From Candidatus Nitrosymbiomonas proteolyticus (GTDB taxonomy: Bacteria; Armatimonadota; Fimbriimonadia; Fimbriimonadales; Fimbriimonadaceae): 64,000 nucleotides of DNA. Shown here piece after piece: positions 2 to 42,644 of this stretch (its first letter is position 1; each line of letters opens with the position of its first letter). Location of the stretch: the NCBI GenBank assembly GCA_017347465.1, contig AP021858.1:496001-560000 (forward strand), in the 5' to 3' direction. Position numbers and translations under genes: made by a program. A model generated the notes under the pieces. That model was not told where the DNA came from, did no database searches, and saw only the letters and a list, made by a program, of their open reading frames with translations.

Positions 2-301
2 GAAGGGAGATTCGACCAAGCCGCTGCGCACTATGAGATCGCGCTACGAGCCGTCGGGCACTACCCTGACCTGCACTGCAAGTATGCGCAGGTTCTGTTG
101 GAACTCGACCGGCTCGGCCAGGCCCTCGACCACCTCGATACCGCAGTAAGGCTCAACCCGAGGTACGCCGAGGCTCACGCGCAACGGGGGATCGCCTTGC
201 GGCGGCTTGGGCGCAGTGACGACGCCCGAGAGGCGTTTCGGGAAGCCCTGAAATTCGATCCGCACCACGTGATCGCCGAACTCGAAGTCCTGCGACCCTA
301 G
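2..301 (+). CDS. TPR-repeat protein, C-terminal fragment
   Basis: The reading frame is already open at the window edge and stops with TAG at 299-301, so only the last 99 residues are visible and the start lies outside. The visible part has at least two and a half tetratricopeptide repeats: alternating Gly/Ala and Tyr/Ala positions, helix-turn-helix periodicity of about 34 residues, and the hallmark patterns 'LNPRYAEAHAQRG' and 'DDAREAFREALKFDP'. TPR units are protein-protein interaction scaffolds; the partner cannot be read from this fragment. It converges on the anti-sigma gene, which ends 9 bp away on the other strand. Confidence 0.75.
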   Translation, partial: EGRFDQAAAHYEIALRAVGHYPDLHCKYAQVLLELDRLGQALDHLDTAVRLNPRYAEAHAQRGIALRRLGRSDDAREAFREALKFDPHHVIAELEVLRP

Positions 302-310
302 GCGAGCCGC

Positions 311-1015
311 TCAGGATCGGTGCAGAGTCTGCGCCGCCGCTTCGATGGCAACCTTCCAGCGGGTGTCTTCGTCGCCCCCGAGGACCTGGTACGTGAAGTT
401 CGGGCAACTCCAGCAAATCCCCTCATCGACATAGAATGGAACTCCGTCGACGAGCCTCTTTTGCCCTGGAAGCTGCTCAGTGCGCTCGCGAATCACGAGC
501 TTGTATTCCTTGCCTTCGACCATGAACTCGTAACAAGCCCAACCCGAGCCGTAGCAGCAATGGTTGAGGTCGGCGACCCCCGCCAAGTTGACCATCGGCA
601 CGGGGCCGAGGCTTGCGTTCTGGCGGAGCCAATCCCTTGCGAACGTCGGATCGCTGATCATCTGGCCGTTGACGGCGACGAGGTCCGATCCGAAAGAAGA
701 ACCGCTGGGTCGGAACCAACTCAGGGCCATGACGAGAACGAGAATCGCCGCAGCCGCGGCAAAAGACCACTGGAACCAGGGCCGGGGAGCGGGGCGAGCT
801 TCTCTGGGAGTCTGGACAACCTGGGAGAGGCCGCGTCGCAGCGACTCGATGGGGACCGCTTCCGTGAGGGCAGCCTGGCGGACCGCGCTTCGAAGCCGCT
901 TGAGGGCTTCGAGCTCCGCTTGCGCCCGAGCGTCCTCGGCGAGCAGGGATTCTGCTTGCCGAAGCTCTTCGCCTTCGAGCGACCCGTCCAGGTACGACTG
1001 CCAGTCCACGTTCAT
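311..1015 (-). CDS. membrane anti-sigma factor with Cys-rich outer domain
   Basis: This 234-residue protein sits directly downstream of an ECF sigma gene; the two overlap by 4 bp (1012-1015), so they are translationally coupled. Residues 1-75 form a charged helical region starting 'MNVDWQSYLDG', typical of the sigma-binding N-terminus of anti-sigma factors. It lacks the HxxxCxxC zinc motif of ZAS proteins. One membrane helix follows at about 81-101. The outer part (about 105-234) carries five cysteines: CC at 153-154, C161, and C201/C204 in a CxxC arrangement ('GICWSCPNF'), plus H152. Inferred role: hold the sigma factor at the membrane and release it on an envelope signal, possibly thiol or metal related. 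The role comes from context and topology; the sensor domain is not one I can name. Confidence 0.75.
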   Translation of the reverse strand: MNVDWQSYLDGSLEGEELRQAESLLAEDARAQAELEALKRLRSAVRQAALTEAVPIESLRRGLSQVVQTPREARPAPRPWFQWSFAAAAAILVLVMALSWFRPSGSSFGSDLVAVNGQMISDPTFARDWLRQNASLGPVPMVNLAGVADLNHCCYGSGWACYEFMVEGKEYKLVIRERTEQLPGQKRLVDGVPFYVDEGICWSCPNFTYQVLGGDEDTRWKVAIEAAAQTLHRS

Positions 1016-35787: not shown

Positions 35788-36732
35788 ATGCGGGCTGTTG
35801 TGACCGGCGGGGCGGGGTTCTTGGGTTCTCACCTCACCGACCGGCTGGTCGAGCGCGGATGGGAAGTCACGGTCATCGACAACCTCATCACCGGCAGCGC
35901 CGAAAACTTGGCCGCGCACTTGGGTTCGGGCCGCGTCCGGTTCATCAAGCAGGACGTCACTGAGTACCTGTTCCTGGAAGGGTCGGTGGACGCGGTTTTC
36001 CACTTCGCCAGTCCTGCAAGCCCTGTCGACTTCGACCGCTTCCCGATCCAAGTTCTCAAGGCTGGCGCCCTCGGTACCCATAAGGCGCTCGGACTCGCCA
36101 AGCACAAGCGCGCGAGGTTCGTCTTGGCCAGCACGAGCGAGGTTTATGGCGACCCCGAGGTCTCGCCTCAACCCGAAACCTATTGGGGCAACGTGAATCC
36201 GATCGGACCGCGCGGCGTCTATGACGAAGCCAAGAGGTTCGCTGAAGCGATGACGATGGCCTACAATCGCATCCACGGCGTCGACACCCGGATCGCGCGG
36301 TTCTTCAACTCTTACGGACCGAGGATGCGCCTCGACGATGGGCGGGTCGTCCCGAACTTCGTGGCCCAAGGGCTTCGAAGCGAGCCGCTTACCGTGTTTG
36401 GCGACGGGTCGCACACGCGGTCCTTTTGCTATGTGGACGACACGATCGAAGGCGTCCTCAAGCTCTTTGAGTCTGATTTTGTCGAACCCATCAACATCGG
36501 GAGCGAGCATGAGCTTTCGGTGAGCGAATTCGCCGAGATGATCCTTAGACTCACCGGCTCGACGGCTGGCATCGTTCACACCGACGCCGTTCCTGACGAT
36601 CCCAAGCGAAGACGCCCCGACCTCACGCGGGCAAGAACGATCCTGAATTGGTCGCCTATGACTCCGGTCGAAGAGGGCCTACGGCTCACCATTGAGCACT
36701 TTCGGGATCGGCTGCGCGAAGGTTCAGAGTAG
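35788..36732 (+). CDS. UDP-glucuronate decarboxylase-like NAD-dependent sugar epimerase
   Basis: The 314-residue extended-SDR enzyme has the Rossmann motif '[21 protein letters not shown]', the catalytic Ser/Tyr-xxx-Lys ('[43 protein letters not shown]') and the '[21 protein letters not shown]' stretch. The combination '[14 protein letters not shown]' and '[11 protein letters not shown]' is typical of UDP-xylose synthase (UXS), which converts UDP-glucuronate to UDP-xylose for surface polysaccharides. A related UDP-sugar epimerase cannot be excluded. CACAAT ends 5 nt before the ATG. The 3' end overlaps the HAD gene by 9 bp. Confidence 0.85.
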
Positions 36733-37347
36733 AGCGCCGCGGTGCGCGAGGGCCAGGCGCATCTGCTTGGCGGGATCGTCTTCGGGGTCGATCAGTACGG
36801 CGTCCCATCCCAAACGAATCGCGGCCTCGACGTTCGCGGGGCCATCTTCGAAGTACAGGATTTCGTCGGGGCTCGCTTGTACGCCTACTTCGAACGTCCT
36901 ATAGGCGCGTGGCTCCGGTTTGGACTGCCGGATTTCGTGCGAGGCGATCGGAAACTGGAGAGACCGGATCGCCGGAAACCGCTCGGTGTGATGCATGAGA
37001 TGCCAGTGGGGAGCGTTCGTGTTGCTCAGGCAACCCGTCACGATTTGGGAGGAGTGCAGGCTCTCCACGACTTCGAGAACGCCCCGAAACTCGGTGGCGA
37101 GGATGGCGTTATGAACCTCCAGCGCGTCGGCGGAATCGATCCCCCCGATGAACTCGGCTAAGCCCTCGAGATACTCGTTTTCGGCGATCTCGCCCGCTTG
37201 GAATCGGTCGAAGCCCTCGAACTCGGTCAGGTGAACGCTCGTGCGGAGTCTGGCGGCGTCGGCAAGTCCGGCAGCCTCGATGCACTCGAGCCAATCCTGC
37301 CGCACGGAAACGAGCACACCCCCGAGATCGAAGCAAACGACGCGCAC
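36724..37347 (-). CDS. HAD-superfamily hydrolase (subfamily IA phosphatase-like)
   Basis: The 207-residue protein shows HAD motif I ('[17 protein letters not shown]'), motif II ('[14 protein letters not shown]'), motif III (Lys in '[50 protein letters not shown]') and a helical cap between. The DxGGV motif I (Gly in place of the second Asp) groups it with epoxide-hydrolase N-terminal, YihX-type phosphatases. The substrate is unknown; small sugar phosphates are typical. Start GTG 37347 is supported by a TACAAT exactly 6 nt upstream. Confidence 0.88.
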
Positions 37348-37420: not shown

Positions 37421-38590
37421 CTACCTGTCGGGCGGTTCCGTCCCACGGCTCAGGATCGCGATGTAGTCGGAGTAGCTGAACAATCGGTTGCGTTTCTTCT
37501 CGGTCAGTTCCCGCACGATGCCAAGCCTCACAAGATGGCCGAGCGCATTGTTGACCGAAGCTGGGGTAAGACCAGTTTTTGCCACAAGCGAGTTCGAAGT
37601 AGCCACGGGCCGCTCCATGAGCGCTCGATGGACCTGTAGCGCAGAACGGGCCGCCCGGCCGAGGTCGCCGATCCGGGTTCGGTCTTGCTTCGATAGATCA
37701 TGAAGCTGCTGAGCGGTCTGAACGGCCTGATTCGAGGTGAACGTCACCGCCTCGGCGAAGAAGTCGAGCCACGACTCCCAATCGCCCGTGAGCCGGAGGC
37801 TGTTCAGAAGTTCGAAATATCTCTGGCGATGAGTCTTGAAGTAGAGGCTAAGGTAGAGCATCGGTTCCCTGAGCGCCCCCTGCTCGCACAGCAAGAGGGT
37901 GATCAAGAGCCTTCCAAGCCTGCCGTTCCCGTCAAGAAACGGATGAATGGTCTCGAATTGCACGTGAGCCAGCGCCGCCTTGAGCAGCGGAGGGGTGGGT
38001 TCTGGGACGTCGTGGAGAAACAACTCAAGCTGATTCATGCATTCCTGCACTTCATCTGCCGGTGGGGGAACGAATGACGCATTGCCAGGTCGAGTACCCC
38101 CGATCCAGTTCTGGCTGCGCCTGAACTCCCCCGGAGTCTGGACGCTGCCCCTTCCCTTCGCAAGGAGCACCCCATGCACCTCCCGAATCAACCTCAGAGA
38201 GAGAGGAAGCCCTTCGTCGAGCAGCCGCAATCCATGATGGAGCGCCGAAACGTAGCGGCTCACCTCGCTCACGTCATCCAAAGGCACCCCAGGTTCCTGA
38301 TCCAGCTCAAACAGCAACAAGTCCGAAATCGACGACTGGGTCCCCTCGATCATGGAGGACAGCACGGCTTCCTTTCGGACGTACATGTAGAGAAACAGCG
38401 AGGTGTCGGGAAGCAGGGTTGAAACGCTATCCAGTCGGCCAAGGGCCAGCAGCGCCTGGTCGAACTTGCTCCGTAGTGAAGGGGTCCAGTCGATCGGCGG
38501 GTCGGGCGGCAGCGGCGCGGGCACGAAGGCCCGAGCAACTTCTCCCACCTTCGAAAGCACCACGTATCTGCCCTGAAGTCCTCGCTTCAT
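37421..38590 (-). CDS. Fic-domain adenylyltransferase (AMPylase) with C-terminal winged helix
   Basis: The 389-residue protein carries the complete Fic catalytic motif 'HPFLDGNGRLGR' (H216 to R227, matching HPFx[D/E]GNGRxxR) and an N-terminal inhibitory helix 'SSMIEGTQSS' (S78-E82-G83, the (S/T)xxxE(G/N) motif of class II Fic proteins), so it should be active but self-restrained. A flap region 'GGTRPGNASFVPPPADEV' precedes the motif. The C-terminal 90 residues form a winged helix ('SNSLVAKTGLTPASVNNALGHLVRLGIV'), suggesting DNA binding and autoregulation. Three copies of CTAAAATA lie immediately upstream of the ATG. Fic enzymes transfer AMP to Ser, Thr or Tyr of target proteins; the target is unknown. 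Confidence 0.92.
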   Translation of the reverse strand: MKRGLQGRYVVLSKVGEVARAFVPAPLPPDPPIDWTPSLRSKFDQALLALGRLDSVSTLLPDTSLFLYMYVRKEAVLSSMIEGTQSSISDLLLFELDQEPGVPLDDVSEVSRYVSALHHGLRLLDEGLPLSLRLIREVHGVLLAKGRGSVQTPGEFRRSQNWIGGTRPGNASFVPPPADEVQECMNQLELFLHDVPEPTPPLLKAALAHVQFETIHPFLDGNGRLGRLLITLLLCEQGALREPMLYLSLYFKTHRQRYFELLNSLRLTGDWESWLDFFAEAVTFTSNQAVQTAQQLHDLSKQDRTRIGDLGRAARSALQVHRALMERPVATSNSLVAKTGLTPASVNNALGHLVRLGIVRELTEKKRNRLFSYSDYIAILSRGTEPPDR

Positions 38591-38591
38591 C

Positions 38592-38640
38592 CTAAAATAC
38601 CGATGTTCGTTATTTTAGCTTAGGGCCATATCCTAAAATA
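38592..38640 (-). promoter_or_regulatory. three-copy AT-rich operator/promoter of the Fic gene
   Basis: CTAAAATA occurs at 38592-38599 and 38633-38640 and as its exact reverse complement TATTTTAG at 38611-38618. The first two form a palindrome with an 11-nt spacer that touches the Fic start codon. The block is strikingly AT-rich against its surroundings and includes TAAAAT, a plausible -10. A winged-helix factor bound here would block the fic promoter; the Fic protein's own C-terminal domain is the obvious candidate (inference). Confidence 0.65.
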
Positions 38641-38733
38641 AAGACTCGACAGAGACCCAGAGGATGGAGCCGACGAACCATCGGTCCAAGAAGGGCGCTG
38701 AGGTAAGGCGCGGGGATTTCCGGAAGATCGCCA

Positions 38734-38749
38734 CGGGACGGCGGTCCCG
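38734..38749 (-). other. hairpin 3' of tmRNA, possible terminator
   Basis: CGGGAC-GGCG-GTCCCG (6-bp stem, 4-nt loop) lies 12 nt beyond the mature tmRNA 3' end. It lacks a T-tract, so termination or 3' processing is only possible, not shown. The remaining sequence between it and the Fic operator (38641-38733) contains nothing I can identify. Confidence 0.3.
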
Positions 38750-38760
38750 GACCAGAAGAC

Positions 38761-39117
38761 TGGTGGAGGCGGCGGGAATTGAACCCGCTTCCAAAACTGT
38801 CGTACCTACGGTTCCCACGAGCGTCTCCCCTACTTAGGTTTTCGTCGCGGAGCCCTCCAAGGGGCGGGCTGCCCCGCGCTTAGCTCGATTGTTTTAGCCT
38901 ACGCGCGCTCCGAGCCGAAGCTCACGCAAGCGATCCGGATTTGGCTACGCCTGAAGGTTGCCTACCGGCTCGGCGGACCCCAGACGCGCGGCAGCTATTA
39001 GGCCGCGTAAGCGAAGTTGTTGTTCGCAGTTGCTTTGTTTGCCGCTTTTTACGAGGCCAGCGGCGCCTCGGCTCGCAACCGAAGATCGAACCAGCTCTGT
39101 CGAACCCGTTCGCCCCC
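38761..39117 (-). ncRNA. ssrA: transfer-messenger RNA (tmRNA)
   Basis: The 357-nt gene is on the minus strand. The 5' end GGGGGCG (39117-39111) pairs with the 3' CGCCTCC (one G-U), followed by ACCA encoded at 38764-38761. The T-arm has the GGTTCAATTCC loop. In the middle, after the conserved CTCGTAAAAAGC block, lies the tag reading frame, whose stop TAA is at 39000-38998. If translation resumes at GCG (39027-39025) the degradation tag is ANNNFAYAA, with the conserved A-A end read by ClpXP-type proteases; an earlier GCA at 39042 is an in-frame alternative. tmRNA rescues stalled ribosomes together with SmpB. The encoded CCA and single-piece form are clear; pseudoknots were not folded. Confidence 0.95.
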
Positions 39118-39225: not shown

Positions 39226-40209
39226 ATGGACGACGGACTCGATCGTCTGATACGGGACCACCGCGAGCGTGGGAAGGAATCCCTTTTTGTTGGAGAGGAA
39301 CGTCGAGAGTACGTTCACCCTGTGGCTCCGCCTGCAACCTTCCTCCAAGCGCTGGAGCGGTCCTTTACAGGCGCAAAGAAGGCAGCGGAGGATGCGAAGA
39401 GGTTTTGGAATCAGCCTATTCGAGATGTTCTTCGTCGCACCACGGGTCTGAGGCTGGTGGTCGGCGACTGGAACGCTCAAGTTCCTGTCAGGGTAGTGGA
39501 TAACGTCATGCCCGAATTCCTCTGGGTCATTGGAGCGCTCAATGATGAGGCCGGGTGGGACGTAATCTTCGCGATGGACGCCCTTCTCGACGCCGCAAAG
39601 GGGCTCAAGCGGCTCGCAAGCCTTGCTCGAAAACACCCCGGCTTAGGCTTTACGGTGGGAGAGTGTGAAGCCGAAAGCGAGAGAATTCACAGCCTCCTCA
39701 GGGCCAGCGGCGCTTCGGCGCTCTTGCAGCGGTTCCGGAGCGTGCCCAGGGACATTCTCGGGTGCTATTGGTACGACCCGTTAGACCCGAGAATCGACCT
39801 GTATTGGATGGCGATCGCCACCCTTGCGAAGGTCCTGAACGTTTCGGTCGAGTCGCTCACCGTCGTCGTGCTGGCTCATGAACTGGCTCACGCCTACTCT
39901 CAACTGGGTCGAGACATCGATAAGTGGGATTGGCCGGTGTTCTTCTTCCATAAGACATCGAAAGATGTGGTGGAAGGCATCGCCCAGTTCTACACAGAGC
40001 TTGTCGTCCACGACCTTGCCCCCCGATATCCCGATGCCAGACGCGCCTACCAGAGACTCTTGAAGCTCCAATCGGGGCCTTACCTCGCTCACCTTGATTG
40101 GAAACCGAACGACACCCATCGAGGGGAGATCATTCGCTCGGCGATGATGGAGTTTCGTCGATCGGGCGAGCTCACGCACGAGGAGTTCCTGAGACGCCTG
40201 GATCGGTAG
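39226..40209 (+). CDS. HExxH metallopeptidase-like protein
   Basis: The predicted 327-residue protein contains a zincin motif 'VVLAHELAHAYSQLGRD' (H218, E219, H222), with a candidate third zinc ligand E250 in 'VVEGIAQFYTELV', 28 residues later, a gluzincin-like spacing. The N-terminal 200 residues are mixed helical with no recognised domain. There is no signal peptide, so it is probably cytoplasmic. ATG 39226 is chosen because the open frame further upstream runs into the tmRNA gene and its promoter and is arginine-rich nonsense; there is no convincing Shine-Dalgarno. It lies between tmRNA and the convergent MFS-HEAT gene. Substrate unknown. Confidence 0.65.
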   Translation: MDDGLDRLIRDHRERGKESLFVGEERREYVHPVAPPATFLQALERSFTGAKKAAEDAKRFWNQPIRDVLRRTTGLRLVVGDWNAQVPVRVVDNVMPEFLWVIGALNDEAGWDVIFAMDALLDAAKGLKRLASLARKHPGLGFTVGECEAESERIHSLLRASGASALLQRFRSVPRDILGCYWYDPLDPRIDLYWMAIATLAKVLNVSVESLTVVVLAHELAHAYSQLGRDIDKWDWPVFFFHKTSKDVVEGIAQFYTELVVHDLAPRYPDARRAYQRLLKLQSGPYLAHLDWKPNDTHRGEIIRSAMMEFRRSGELTHEEFLRRLDR

Positions 40210-40226: not shown

Positions 40227-42545
40227 TTACCGAGCCTCGACGGCAAGGGGATAGGCCACCAAGAACGACTCTTCAACTTCGTAGTCCAAGAGCGGCTTGA
40301 GAACCTTGCATTGGGGTCGGCGCAGCAGGAGCCGAAGGGCGCCCTTTTCATCGCCAGAAGAGAAGTGGTCGAGGGCGGCCCGCACGGAGGGATCGCGCCT
40401 TCCCCCCGACGAAGCCATCGAAAGCAGCGCCGCATCCCGCTCGAACCCCTCCGTCATGAAGAGGCGATAGGCTGTCGATTCGACGCCGACGATCCGGGCG
40501 ACTCCGAGCAAGCAGCGGCGGCGCGTGATGACCGAGCGGCACTGCGCCGCAATGCCGAGGATACGGGGAATGTCGCCTTCATCTCCCACCGCTCCGAGCG
40601 CATACGCCATCTCGCTTTCGGCCTCGTCGCCGTGTCTGCCAAGGGTCTCGCGGAGGACACTTGCGAGTTCCCGGAAGCCGATTTCAGCTACAGCCTCCGC
40701 AGCAGCGATTCGCAGGCTGGGGTAGGGGTCCCTGAGAGCCTCGGCCACGACATCGATGGCTGCCGTTGAGCCCAAAACACGAAGCGCCTGGAGCGAACTC
40801 CTTCGAAGATCGGCATCGTTGGGATCGGACGCGGCAGAGATGAGCGGCTGCTCGGCCTCCTTACATCCCAACTTGCCTAAGGCCTTCGCTGCCGCTCGCC
40901 GAAGGTTCGATCGGGGGTTTTGAAGGTGCAAGACCAGCGATTCGAGAGCCCTAGGATCGCCAATCTGCCCGAGCGCTTCGATGGTCTCTTCCTCGACCAG
41001 GTCTTGGTGCTCCGTCAGTTGGTGGACGAGTTCGACGACCGCTCGCTCCGTACCCATGGTCGCAAGCGCGAGGGCCGCCTCTCGCCGAACGGAAGGCGAG
41101 GGGTCATGGAGCGACTTCGCAATCTCATCGACGGCGAGCGTGAACCGGCTCTTGGCGGCCGACCGAATCGCGTCGCCGCGGCGGGACGGGTCCGTCGAGC
41201 GCGCAAGCCTCTTGACCGCTCGGAATCCGGCGGGATTGACCTGTTTCAGTTGCCGAAACGCCTCACGAAGCCTGAGCGACCCCGCCTCGCGCACCGGAAG
41301 CAAGAAGAAGACCGAGGTAAACCGAAGCCCCATCGTGACGGAAAACACGACCTTGTAGGCGTCGGGAGCGGCGAGAACGCCCCGAAGGATCTCCATCGTC
41401 GCCGCGCCGGCAAGGGGGGCCAAGCCGCCCACAATCGCCTGCAATGCTAGGCCGACGCCGATGTACGTCGCGCGGTCCTCCGTCTTGGCGGTTGCGAATA
41501 GAAGATTAAGCTGGCAGAGCGCGACACCGCCCCAAACGGCCCCGCTGAACACATGGCCGGAAATGAGAATCGCCGCGTTGGCGACATCTCGACCCGGAAA
41601 GCAGAACAGCCACATCAAAGGGGAGAACGCAAGGCCGATCGAAAGCAGGGCAAGGACGGGGCGGTTGCCATAGCGGTCGGCGAGATAACCCCAGAATGGC
41701 GTCAGCGCGATGCTGCCCAGCGCGTGGGTCGCCGCAGCGAACTGGATCACCGTGAAGGGCATTTTGAGGCTCTCCAAAGCAAAAGCAGAGAAGAGGTTGC
41801 CCGGAAACACCTGCCCAATCACGAATACTGCGAGGAACCCCAAGACGGGTCGGAAGCCGTGGTCCTTCAGCGGCCCGACGAACGACACGATCGCCCTCTT
41901 GAGCGGCATCCGGATCGGCCTTTCGCGCGTCAGGTCGCGCATGAAGAGAAACATAGTGAAGCTGGCGACCGCGCACACCCACCCCACGCCAAACACCACC
42001 GAGTACCCCAATGCCTCGTTTCCCGACCTTTCGAACGCATCGAGCACGAGCCCCATCAGGGTCCCGGCGAGGGCGCCGACCGCGGTCGCGATCATTTGGC
42101 GTCGTCCGAAGTACCAGCCTCGGGAAGAAGGAGGGACCAGTTCGGCGAGCCAGTCGTTGTAGATCGGGTTCACCAACAGGACGGCCGCTCCCGCCAACGA
42201 CACGCAGACGGCGAGGAACGTCAGACGCCAGGTGTCGGGCAAAGGCAGCAGCGGCAGCGCGACGAGCGGCAGATACAGCAAACGCCAAATGAGCGCGCCC
42301 GGAAGCACGAACCGTTTGTACGACTCGACGCCGCGACCCCAGATCGCGCCGGGAATCTGGAGAACGCCCAACATGCTGGGGAGCGCCACCAGCAAGTTCA
42401 CCCACGCATCGGAACCCCCCAAGTACCGAACGAAACCCACCAGAAACGCTCCTGTGACGAGGGTGGCGAACGCGGTGGCAAACGCTGCGTCGAGAGTGGC
42501 AAAACGCAGCGTTCGGAGCGTTTGAAGGCGATTCGGGGGTTCCAT
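40227..42545 (-). CDS. MFS transporter fused to a C-terminal HEAT-repeat domain
   Basis: The 772-residue protein from ATG 42545 has two clear halves. Residues about 1-420 form a 12-helix major facilitator core with the MFS loop motif 'GYLADRYGNRPVLALL' and 'FFLLPVREAG' at its end. Residues about 450-700 are six or so HEAT/PBS-lyase-like repeats ('DPSPSVRREAALALATMG', 'QIGDPRALESLVLHLQNPRSNLRRAAAKALGKLG', 'DPYPSLRIAAAEAVAEIG', 'AYALGAVGDEGDIPRIL'). The HEAT part would be cytoplasmic and may regulate or tether the transporter. Substrate unknown. The downstream gene is convergent, so it is probably monocistronic. Confidence 0.88.
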   Translation of the reverse strand: MEPPNRLQTLRTLRFATLDAAFATAFATLVTGAFLVGFVRYLGGSDAWVNLLVALPSMLGVLQIPGAIWGRGVESYKRFVLPGALIWRLLYLPLVALPLLPLPDTWRLTFLAVCVSLAGAAVLLVNPIYNDWLAELVPPSSRGWYFGRRQMIATAVGALAGTLMGLVLDAFERSGNEALGYSVVFGVGWVCAVASFTMFLFMRDLTRERPIRMPLKRAIVSFVGPLKDHGFRPVLGFLAVFVIGQVFPGNLFSAFALESLKMPFTVIQFAAATHALGSIALTPFWGYLADRYGNRPVLALLSIGLAFSPLMWLFCFPGRDVANAAILISGHVFSGAVWGGVALCQLNLLFATAKTEDRATYIGVGLALQAIVGGLAPLAGAATMEILRGVLAAPDAYKVVFSVTMGLRFTSVFFLLPVREAGSLRLREAFRQLKQVNPAGFRAVKRLARSTDPSRRGDAIRSAAKSRFTLAVDEIAKSLHDPSPSVRREAALALATMGTERAVVELVHQLTEHQDLVEEETIEALGQIGDPRALESLVLHLQNPRSNLRRAAAKALGKLGCKEAEQPLISAASDPNDADLRRSSLQALRVLGSTAAIDVVAEALRDPYPSLRIAAAEAVAEIGFRELASVLRETLGRHGDEAESEMAYALGAVGDEGDIPRILGIAAQCRSVITRRRCLLGVARIVGVESTAYRLFMTEGFERDAALLSMASSGGRRDPSVRAALDHFSSGDEKGALRLLLRRPQCKVLKPLLDYEVEESFLVAYPLAVEAR

Positions 42546-42566
42546 TCGATCCCTTTCGAATCCCCA

Positions 42567-42595
42567 AAAAAGAGGGCGCCTCGCCGACCCCCTCG
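42567..42595 (-). terminator. intrinsic terminator after the Doc-like gene
   Basis: Reading the minus strand, GAGGG (42595-42591) and CCCTC (42577-42573) enclose a GC-rich loop and are followed directly by TTTTTT (42572-42567). It is correctly placed 49 nt after the Doc-like stop codon. Confidence 0.6.
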
Positions 42596-42644
42596 TCGAG
42601 GTGAGACGCAAACTTTTGGGATTCGAATTCGTGTTGGCGGGAGC

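Follow-up and report, generated by a model that had tools for sequence, protein, structure and literature searches.

A helically phased three-site array ahead of a SoFic-type fic gene, a candidate self-operator in Candidatus Nitrosymbiomonas proteolyticus

Fic proteins of the SoFic family are listed by PADLOC as anti-phage defence, and Millman et al. 2022 is reportedly a study on defence systems. Autorepression by a Fic protein has already been published in one other case, CccR of Yersinia pseudotuberculosis. The portion of that paper available to us reports reporter, EMSA, ITC and footprint experiments in which CccR represses its own promoter via a helix-turn-helix domain, and it describes CccR as a secreted T6SS effector (PMC9755527). 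A second related protein is CbFic2 of Coxiella burnetii, a Fic with a C-terminal helix-turn-helix, which according to the accessible part of the report binds DNA, dimerises upon it and then favours deAMPylation (PMC10628234). For E. coli Sofic, the sections of PMC12249575 covered here state that leaky expression makes the protein toxic even though it inhibits itself, that cloning of the wild type succeeded only with three lac operators in front of it, and that toxicity requires the C-terminal domain. The same sections report an antitoxin gene, AS1 (47 aa), downstream of Sofic in one strain, E. coli H397; they leave the activation and control of the enzyme open and describe no Sofic operator, and a search of the main text by word start found none of 'HTH', 'winged', 'upstream' and 'transcription'. 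Because a Streptococcus SoFic had minimal effect on the tested phages, as stated in the consulted part of PMC11514479, phage defence is not to be assumed for each member of the family. Our literature search on Fic operators and autorepression, with subscription papers and preprints mostly outside its coverage, found CccR, and no operator described as phased or as specific to a clade. The kind of system is known. Within the literature searched, an operator of this phased and clade-specific form is a new variant for a family of phage-defence proteins.

We analysed a window of 64,000 nucleotides of the genome, in which the fic gene and its parts lie as follows.

37421 to 38590, minus strand: fic gene for a SoFic-type class II Fic AMP-transferase with a predicted C-terminal winged helix, 389 aa (open frame, Pfam, PADLOC)
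37448 to 37660, minus strand: winged-helix domain, codons 311-381 (predicted structure and a weak HTH_24 match)
37526 to 37564, minus strand: putative recognition helix, codons 343-355 (predicted structure and co-variation with the operator, weak in the held-out set)
37910 to 37945, minus strand: catalytic motif HPFLDGNGRLGR, codons 216-227 (intact, with H216 to R227 conserved)
38342 to 38359, minus strand: class II inhibitory motif S-x-x-x-E-G, codons 78-83 (alignment A1)

The protein matches the Pfam families Fic_N (8.3e-25) and Fic (6.3e-21). By profile its family is SoFic, which the preliminary description of this locus did not name: the PADLOC SoFic profile PDLC03963 matches with an E-value of 1.7e-116 over profile positions 7-360 of 361, and it also matches 45 of the 45 members of alignment A1. 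The score against the NCBIfam SoFic equivalog NF046030 is 141.8 bits, below the curated cut-off of 550 bits. An inhibitory helix precedes the intact catalytic motif, the arrangement that defines class II (class names follow PMC12249575, as far as that text was covered). The preliminary description had claimed an intact Fic motif, an intact inhibitory motif and a C-terminal winged helix, and all three hold: the catalytic motif is complete, S78, E82 and G83 are invariant in alignment A1 (n = 45 sequences), and a winged helix appears in the predicted structure (mean pLDDT 90.2, pTM 0.89), with helices at 311-326, 332-339 and 343-355 and the accompanying strands at the C-terminus. The corresponding HTH_24 match, at 318-360, scores 19.5 bits and so stays below the Pfam cut-off of 21.9.

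Among solved structures, the closest fold is that of the Mycobacterium marinum Fic (PDB 7cb8), with Z 40.6 over 372 residues at 27% identity. Shewanella SoFic (PDB 3eqx, 3zcn, 3zec) shares the fold over 353-355 residues (Z 39.7-40.0) together with the class II inhibitory and Fic motifs, although its identity to the protein here is merely 25-26%. CbFic2 (PDB 8cil) is less similar in structure (Z 26.2, rmsd 7.6), and in the part of the CbFic2 report available it binds random DNA and no operator is described (PMC10628234). From its description in the accessible text, CccR resembles our protein in joining a Fic domain to a C-terminal DNA-binding domain and in having inverted repeats at its own start, through which CccR represses its promoter; the CccR operator is a pair of 10-bp repeats at a distance of 26 bp, whereas fic here has three sites at offsets of 23 and 18 (PMC9755527).

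The three sites form the following candidate operator.

38593 to 38640, minus strand: candidate operator, TATTTTA-N16-TAAAATA-N11-TATTTTA in fic direction (534593-534640 of its own genome)
38633 to 38640, plus strand: site 1, CTAAAATA, farthest from fic
38611 to 38618, minus strand: site 2, inverted copy of CTAAAATA
38592 to 38599, plus strand: site 3, CTAAAATA, with 1 nt between the site and the ATG

Two direct copies and one inverted copy thus stand before the ATG, separated from one another by 11 and 14 nt, as had been described previously, down to the 11 nt that separate the inverted pair. The sites had also been called unusual for this sequence, a statement that is true of their clustering and not of the single word. 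In the window, three matches to CTAAAATA compare with a mean of 0.11 and a maximum of 1 in dinucleotide shuffles. The complete genome, a single contig of 2,809,316 bases, has six copies of CTAAAATA, three of them before fic, and five copies of the control word obtained by reading it backward, so the frequency of the word is ordinary and the cluster of three is the notable part. The pair TATTTTAG-N14-CTAAAATA occurs once in the genome; the two next-best places carry three mismatches. A regulon had been envisaged, to be defined by scanning the genome for further copies. We reject it for this genome, where the paired site is found at fic alone and the other three copies of CTAAAATA, inspected by sequence only, are solitary.

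Across the phylum, the array with at most one mismatch occurs at six places in 5 of 291 genomes (its own included), all of them directly before a fic match, while the array read backward as a control gave one match in the same 291 genomes. Both gene and array are kept in a second genome of the species (G150); a genome of the same genus (G001) has no fic match. For a wider comparison, relatives were drawn from phylum genomes, named genomes and viral contigs. Of 276 loci, 264 were located and 249 were eligible, and removal of proteins at least 85% identical left 198 representatives. Arrays in forward-reverse-forward order with a score of 24 or higher out of 30 were present in 95 of the 198, compared with 0.7% of dinucleotide shuffles; by a second scoring (at least 23 of 27), the array was present in 94 of the 198 and in 3 of 594 mononucleotide shuffles. 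The remaining 104 representatives had no array above the threshold of the second scoring.

The spacing of these arrays is quantised. Measured between copies 1 and 3, a distance that is independent of how the arms are registered, it was 30-31 in 10 of the 94 arrays, 40-42 in 70 and 50-52 in 12, with values of 55 or 57 in the other 2; in 92 of the 94 it thus deviates by at most 1 bp from 31, 41 or 51. These distances are steps of one helical turn, that is, they indicate helical phasing. The letters are less constant. Of the 28 close relatives examined (at least 62% identity, with near-duplicates counted), a TATTTTA array could be detected in 23, exactly 23/18 in 20 of the 23. Beyond this clade the operator letters differ (for example CTTAATAAG, AAAGAAAGGAT, TTATTTCA and CTTTACTAG). 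The search of relatives that the preliminary description had proposed thus yields fic orthologues with an array upstream, with the letters of CTAAAATA in the nearest clade only. That description held that letters unconserved upstream of orthologous genes would speak against it. Taken literally, such is the finding outside the nearest clade; the layout, on the other hand, is widely kept, and changes in the letters go along with changes in the protein. Judging from these comparisons, a conservation test should rest on the helically phased layout and not on the letters.

We measured this co-variation on 139 representatives with an operator above threshold, a set thereby selected for having one. 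For each of 378 windows of 12 residues, operator similarity was compared with window identity, given the identity of the Fic core. Window 342-353, in the recognition helix, ranks first of the 378 with a partial r of 0.258; windows outside 321-376 have a mean r of 0.005 (sd 0.044) and a maximum of 0.127. Under a stronger correction the helix retains r 0.234, where 1000 label permutations peak at 0.085. When control DNA at -300 or +60 is substituted for the operator, the helix window falls to r 0.028 and 0.036, and other windows reach 0.137 and 0.206. The leading single positions are A344, in the recognition helix, and N368, in the wing. Among 69 path-disjoint pairs of the Fic-core tree the helix has r 0.34 (p 0.003). 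This is good, though not final, evidence that Fic's own winged helix is what reads the array.

Several results weaken that reading. Among the path-disjoint pairs, window 230-241 of the Fic core (r 0.416) outranks the helix. In a held-out set of 32 loci, the same criteria gave an operator for 21, and among these the helix window came 11th of 378, with r 0.143; 9 of these 21 come from one clade by nearest relatives, and 12 plasmid loci entered without the 85% filter. In nearest-neighbour prediction of the operator, the helix is not significantly better than the core, while among 12-residue windows the helix windows are again on top. Letter rules spotted by eye and then counted, such as TGTAA operators in 6 of 6 proteins with H343 and 3 of 133 without it, are leads only, since there are too few independent pairs for significance.

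The region around the start codon bears on how such an array would act. In close relatives, site 3 and the ATG are separated by a spacer of about 15 nt that includes purine-rich sequence. This spacer is missing at 38591 in the present species (here and in G150), where the array abuts the start codon. Translation of fic may therefore begin on a very short leader, and the gene may be without a ribosome-binding site of its own. A scan of 38500-38800 found no sigma-70-like promoter and no terminator. In the 52 relatives with a promoter-like site, the overlap of operators with promoter hexamers was 0.71, against 0.58 for random placement. The repeats could instead work in RNA, as a hairpin of sites 2 and 3 that controls translation from ahead of the start codon. 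Consistent with this, the 60 nt before the ATG fold at -13.9 kcal/mol (z -2.4 against shuffles) with sites 2 and 3 paired; such folding is, however, expected of any inverted repeat, and a hairpin leaves the third copy, the 10-bp steps in the distance between the direct copies and the link to the recognition helix unexplained. We consider control by a hairpin highly improbable.

The reading we consider probable is autorepression: with its winged helix bound to the phased array, this class II Fic would shut down its own promoter, gene and operator forming a mobile unit. Fic dimers would dock on the array (38593-38640) with the C-terminal domain, the contact being made by recognition helix 343-355, probably aided by the wing. 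Sites 1 and 2, an inverted pair, would be bound by a dimer. Site 3 shares a DNA face with site 1, at a distance of four turns, and one more subunit bound to it would add to occupancy. Protein on the array would lie over the start region, presumably also over the promoter, and fic would be repressed, which would keep scarce a toxic enzyme whose self-inhibition leaks. Autorepression has its precedent in CccR, to the extent that paper was available (PMC9755527). The self-contained, autoregulated Fic module proposed earlier gains support, on comparative grounds, from the conserved layout, the genome-unique pair and the helix that tracks the operator letters. Evidence against autorepression through this array comes from the 104 of 198 representatives without an array, the absence of a recognisable promoter in 38500-38800, the near-random overlap with promoter hexamers and the arrays in viral contigs that have no fic match (see below).

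A further possibility, compatible with autorepression, is that the array mainly controls the enzyme, with DNA-bound dimers kept inactive or deAMPylating. The behaviour of CbFic2, a protein of similar architecture that dimerises on DNA and then favours deAMPylation, points in this direction (PMC10628234, as far as accessible), as does the dependence of E. coli Sofic toxicity on the C-terminal domain (PMC12249575, sections covered). Yet CbFic2 responded to random DNA sequences according to the same part of its report (PMC10628234), and an operator at the gene's own start favours transcription. We hold control of the enzyme as the array's main role to be a tentative option, on the unlikely side.

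If autorepression is right, gene and operator would travel between phyla as a single unit, independent of any host regulator. In the named collection, the closest relatives come from Desulforhopalus (83%), Halothiobacillus (83%), Methylococcaceae (82%) and Desulfatitalea (82%), followed by Lysobacterales, Lentisphaerae and Acidobacteria at 80-81%; several near relatives are metagenome bins, so that single taxon assignments may be wrong. Beyond its own species, the next relatives from its own phylum stand at 74%, below these relatives from other phyla. The Fic-core tree has 36 changes of phylum label, compared with a mean of 41.7 and a minimum of 39 in 200 shuffles, and relatedness thus tracks phylum weakly. 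Genes around fic vary among the six relatives with frames listed. On 12 plasmids the neighbours of fic include partition, relaxase, integrase and restriction genes. SoFic relatives on plasmids pSYSX and pVV8 (L530, L531) adjoin type I restriction or HicA/HicB toxin-antitoxin genes. A DNA search with the Rahnella gene found no E. coli relatives.

In the window, the ten neighbours of fic that were scanned include no clear defence gene and gave two weak partial PADLOC matches. The 73 nt between fic and the next gene (a HAD frame, 36724-37347) are too short for an AS1-like 47-aa gene without overlap. On the other side lies a tmRNA at 38761-39117, minus strand, with tag ANNNFAYAA and its 3' end towards fic. 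The locus had been presented as a module next to tmRNA. The adjacency is real, and the neighbour looks incidental, since ARAGORN found no tmRNA in the 60 loci scanned out of 80 on genome contigs and G001 has a tmRNA without a fic match; we therefore rejected the tmRNA as a part of the module. The tmRNA of G001 and of two other family members sits in a different setting. Farther along, frame 39226-40209 carries a HELAHA motif, which we take to be as in zinc metallopeptidases, and has no match in Pfam (searched with the longer frame from 38941) or PADLOC. In frame 40227-42611 (794 aa), the start resembles a membrane transporter and residues 452-585 match a PADLOC HEAT-repeat model.

The same array also occurs in viral contigs. 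The exact TATTTTA array (23/18) was found in 41 viral stretches (L538-L578), at one place per stretch and in some with overlapping copies; 2 have a fic relative and 39 have no fic match. Examples are L549:3982-4029 and L538:4205-4252. As a control, shifting the middle site by 2 bp gave no matches and rotating the letters gave five. Leaving out the fic cases, the near-duplicates and any array at the end of a stretch reduced these to 23 distinct arrays. The extended half-site is TTATTTTA-n-TTT in the orphan viral arrays, as against TTATTTTAGGaT for fic. Many viral arrays directly precede small genes, and four without fic lie inside open frames of more than 150 codons (L543, L563, L570, L571). 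Of the ORFs beside orphan arrays, 78 of the 111 listed were scanned, and no family recurred in more than two of them. When three arrays were compared with annotated phages, two had partial matches only and one had no match. An array of the TATTTCA class, for which there was no control, occurs in 16 viral stretches, 6 with fic directly beside it, 1 with fic 6 kb away and 9 without fic. Because viral contigs are fragments, a fic gene may lie elsewhere in the same phage or in the host. The orphan arrays may be decoys, the phage's own operators or remnants.

That viral contigs hold arrays of the same core and spacing without a fic match would also be expected if a different regulator, from host or phage, bound the sites and fic just used that operator. 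All six arrays in the phylum precede fic, though, the operator letters follow the recognition helix of Fic rather than the rest of the protein, and the array is retained by close relatives from other phyla; we judge a foreign regulator quite unlikely. A wider reading builds on Fic as the regulator: the operator would be a clade-specific 'password' that the helix reads from the phased array, orphan viral arrays would be SoFic decoys or sites for sensing phage DNA, and operator occupancy would be the defence switch. We offer it as speculation and regard it as rather doubtful.

If autorepression by this Fic is true, the enzyme would be silenced at a further level, by a conserved self-operator that its own C-terminal domain reads, and the covered sections of PMC12249575 describe no such layer. 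The array and the recognition helix supply the sites, residues and helix swaps with which such silencing can be tested, and the natural sequence variation makes this a family in which the recognition code of a winged helix could be deciphered.
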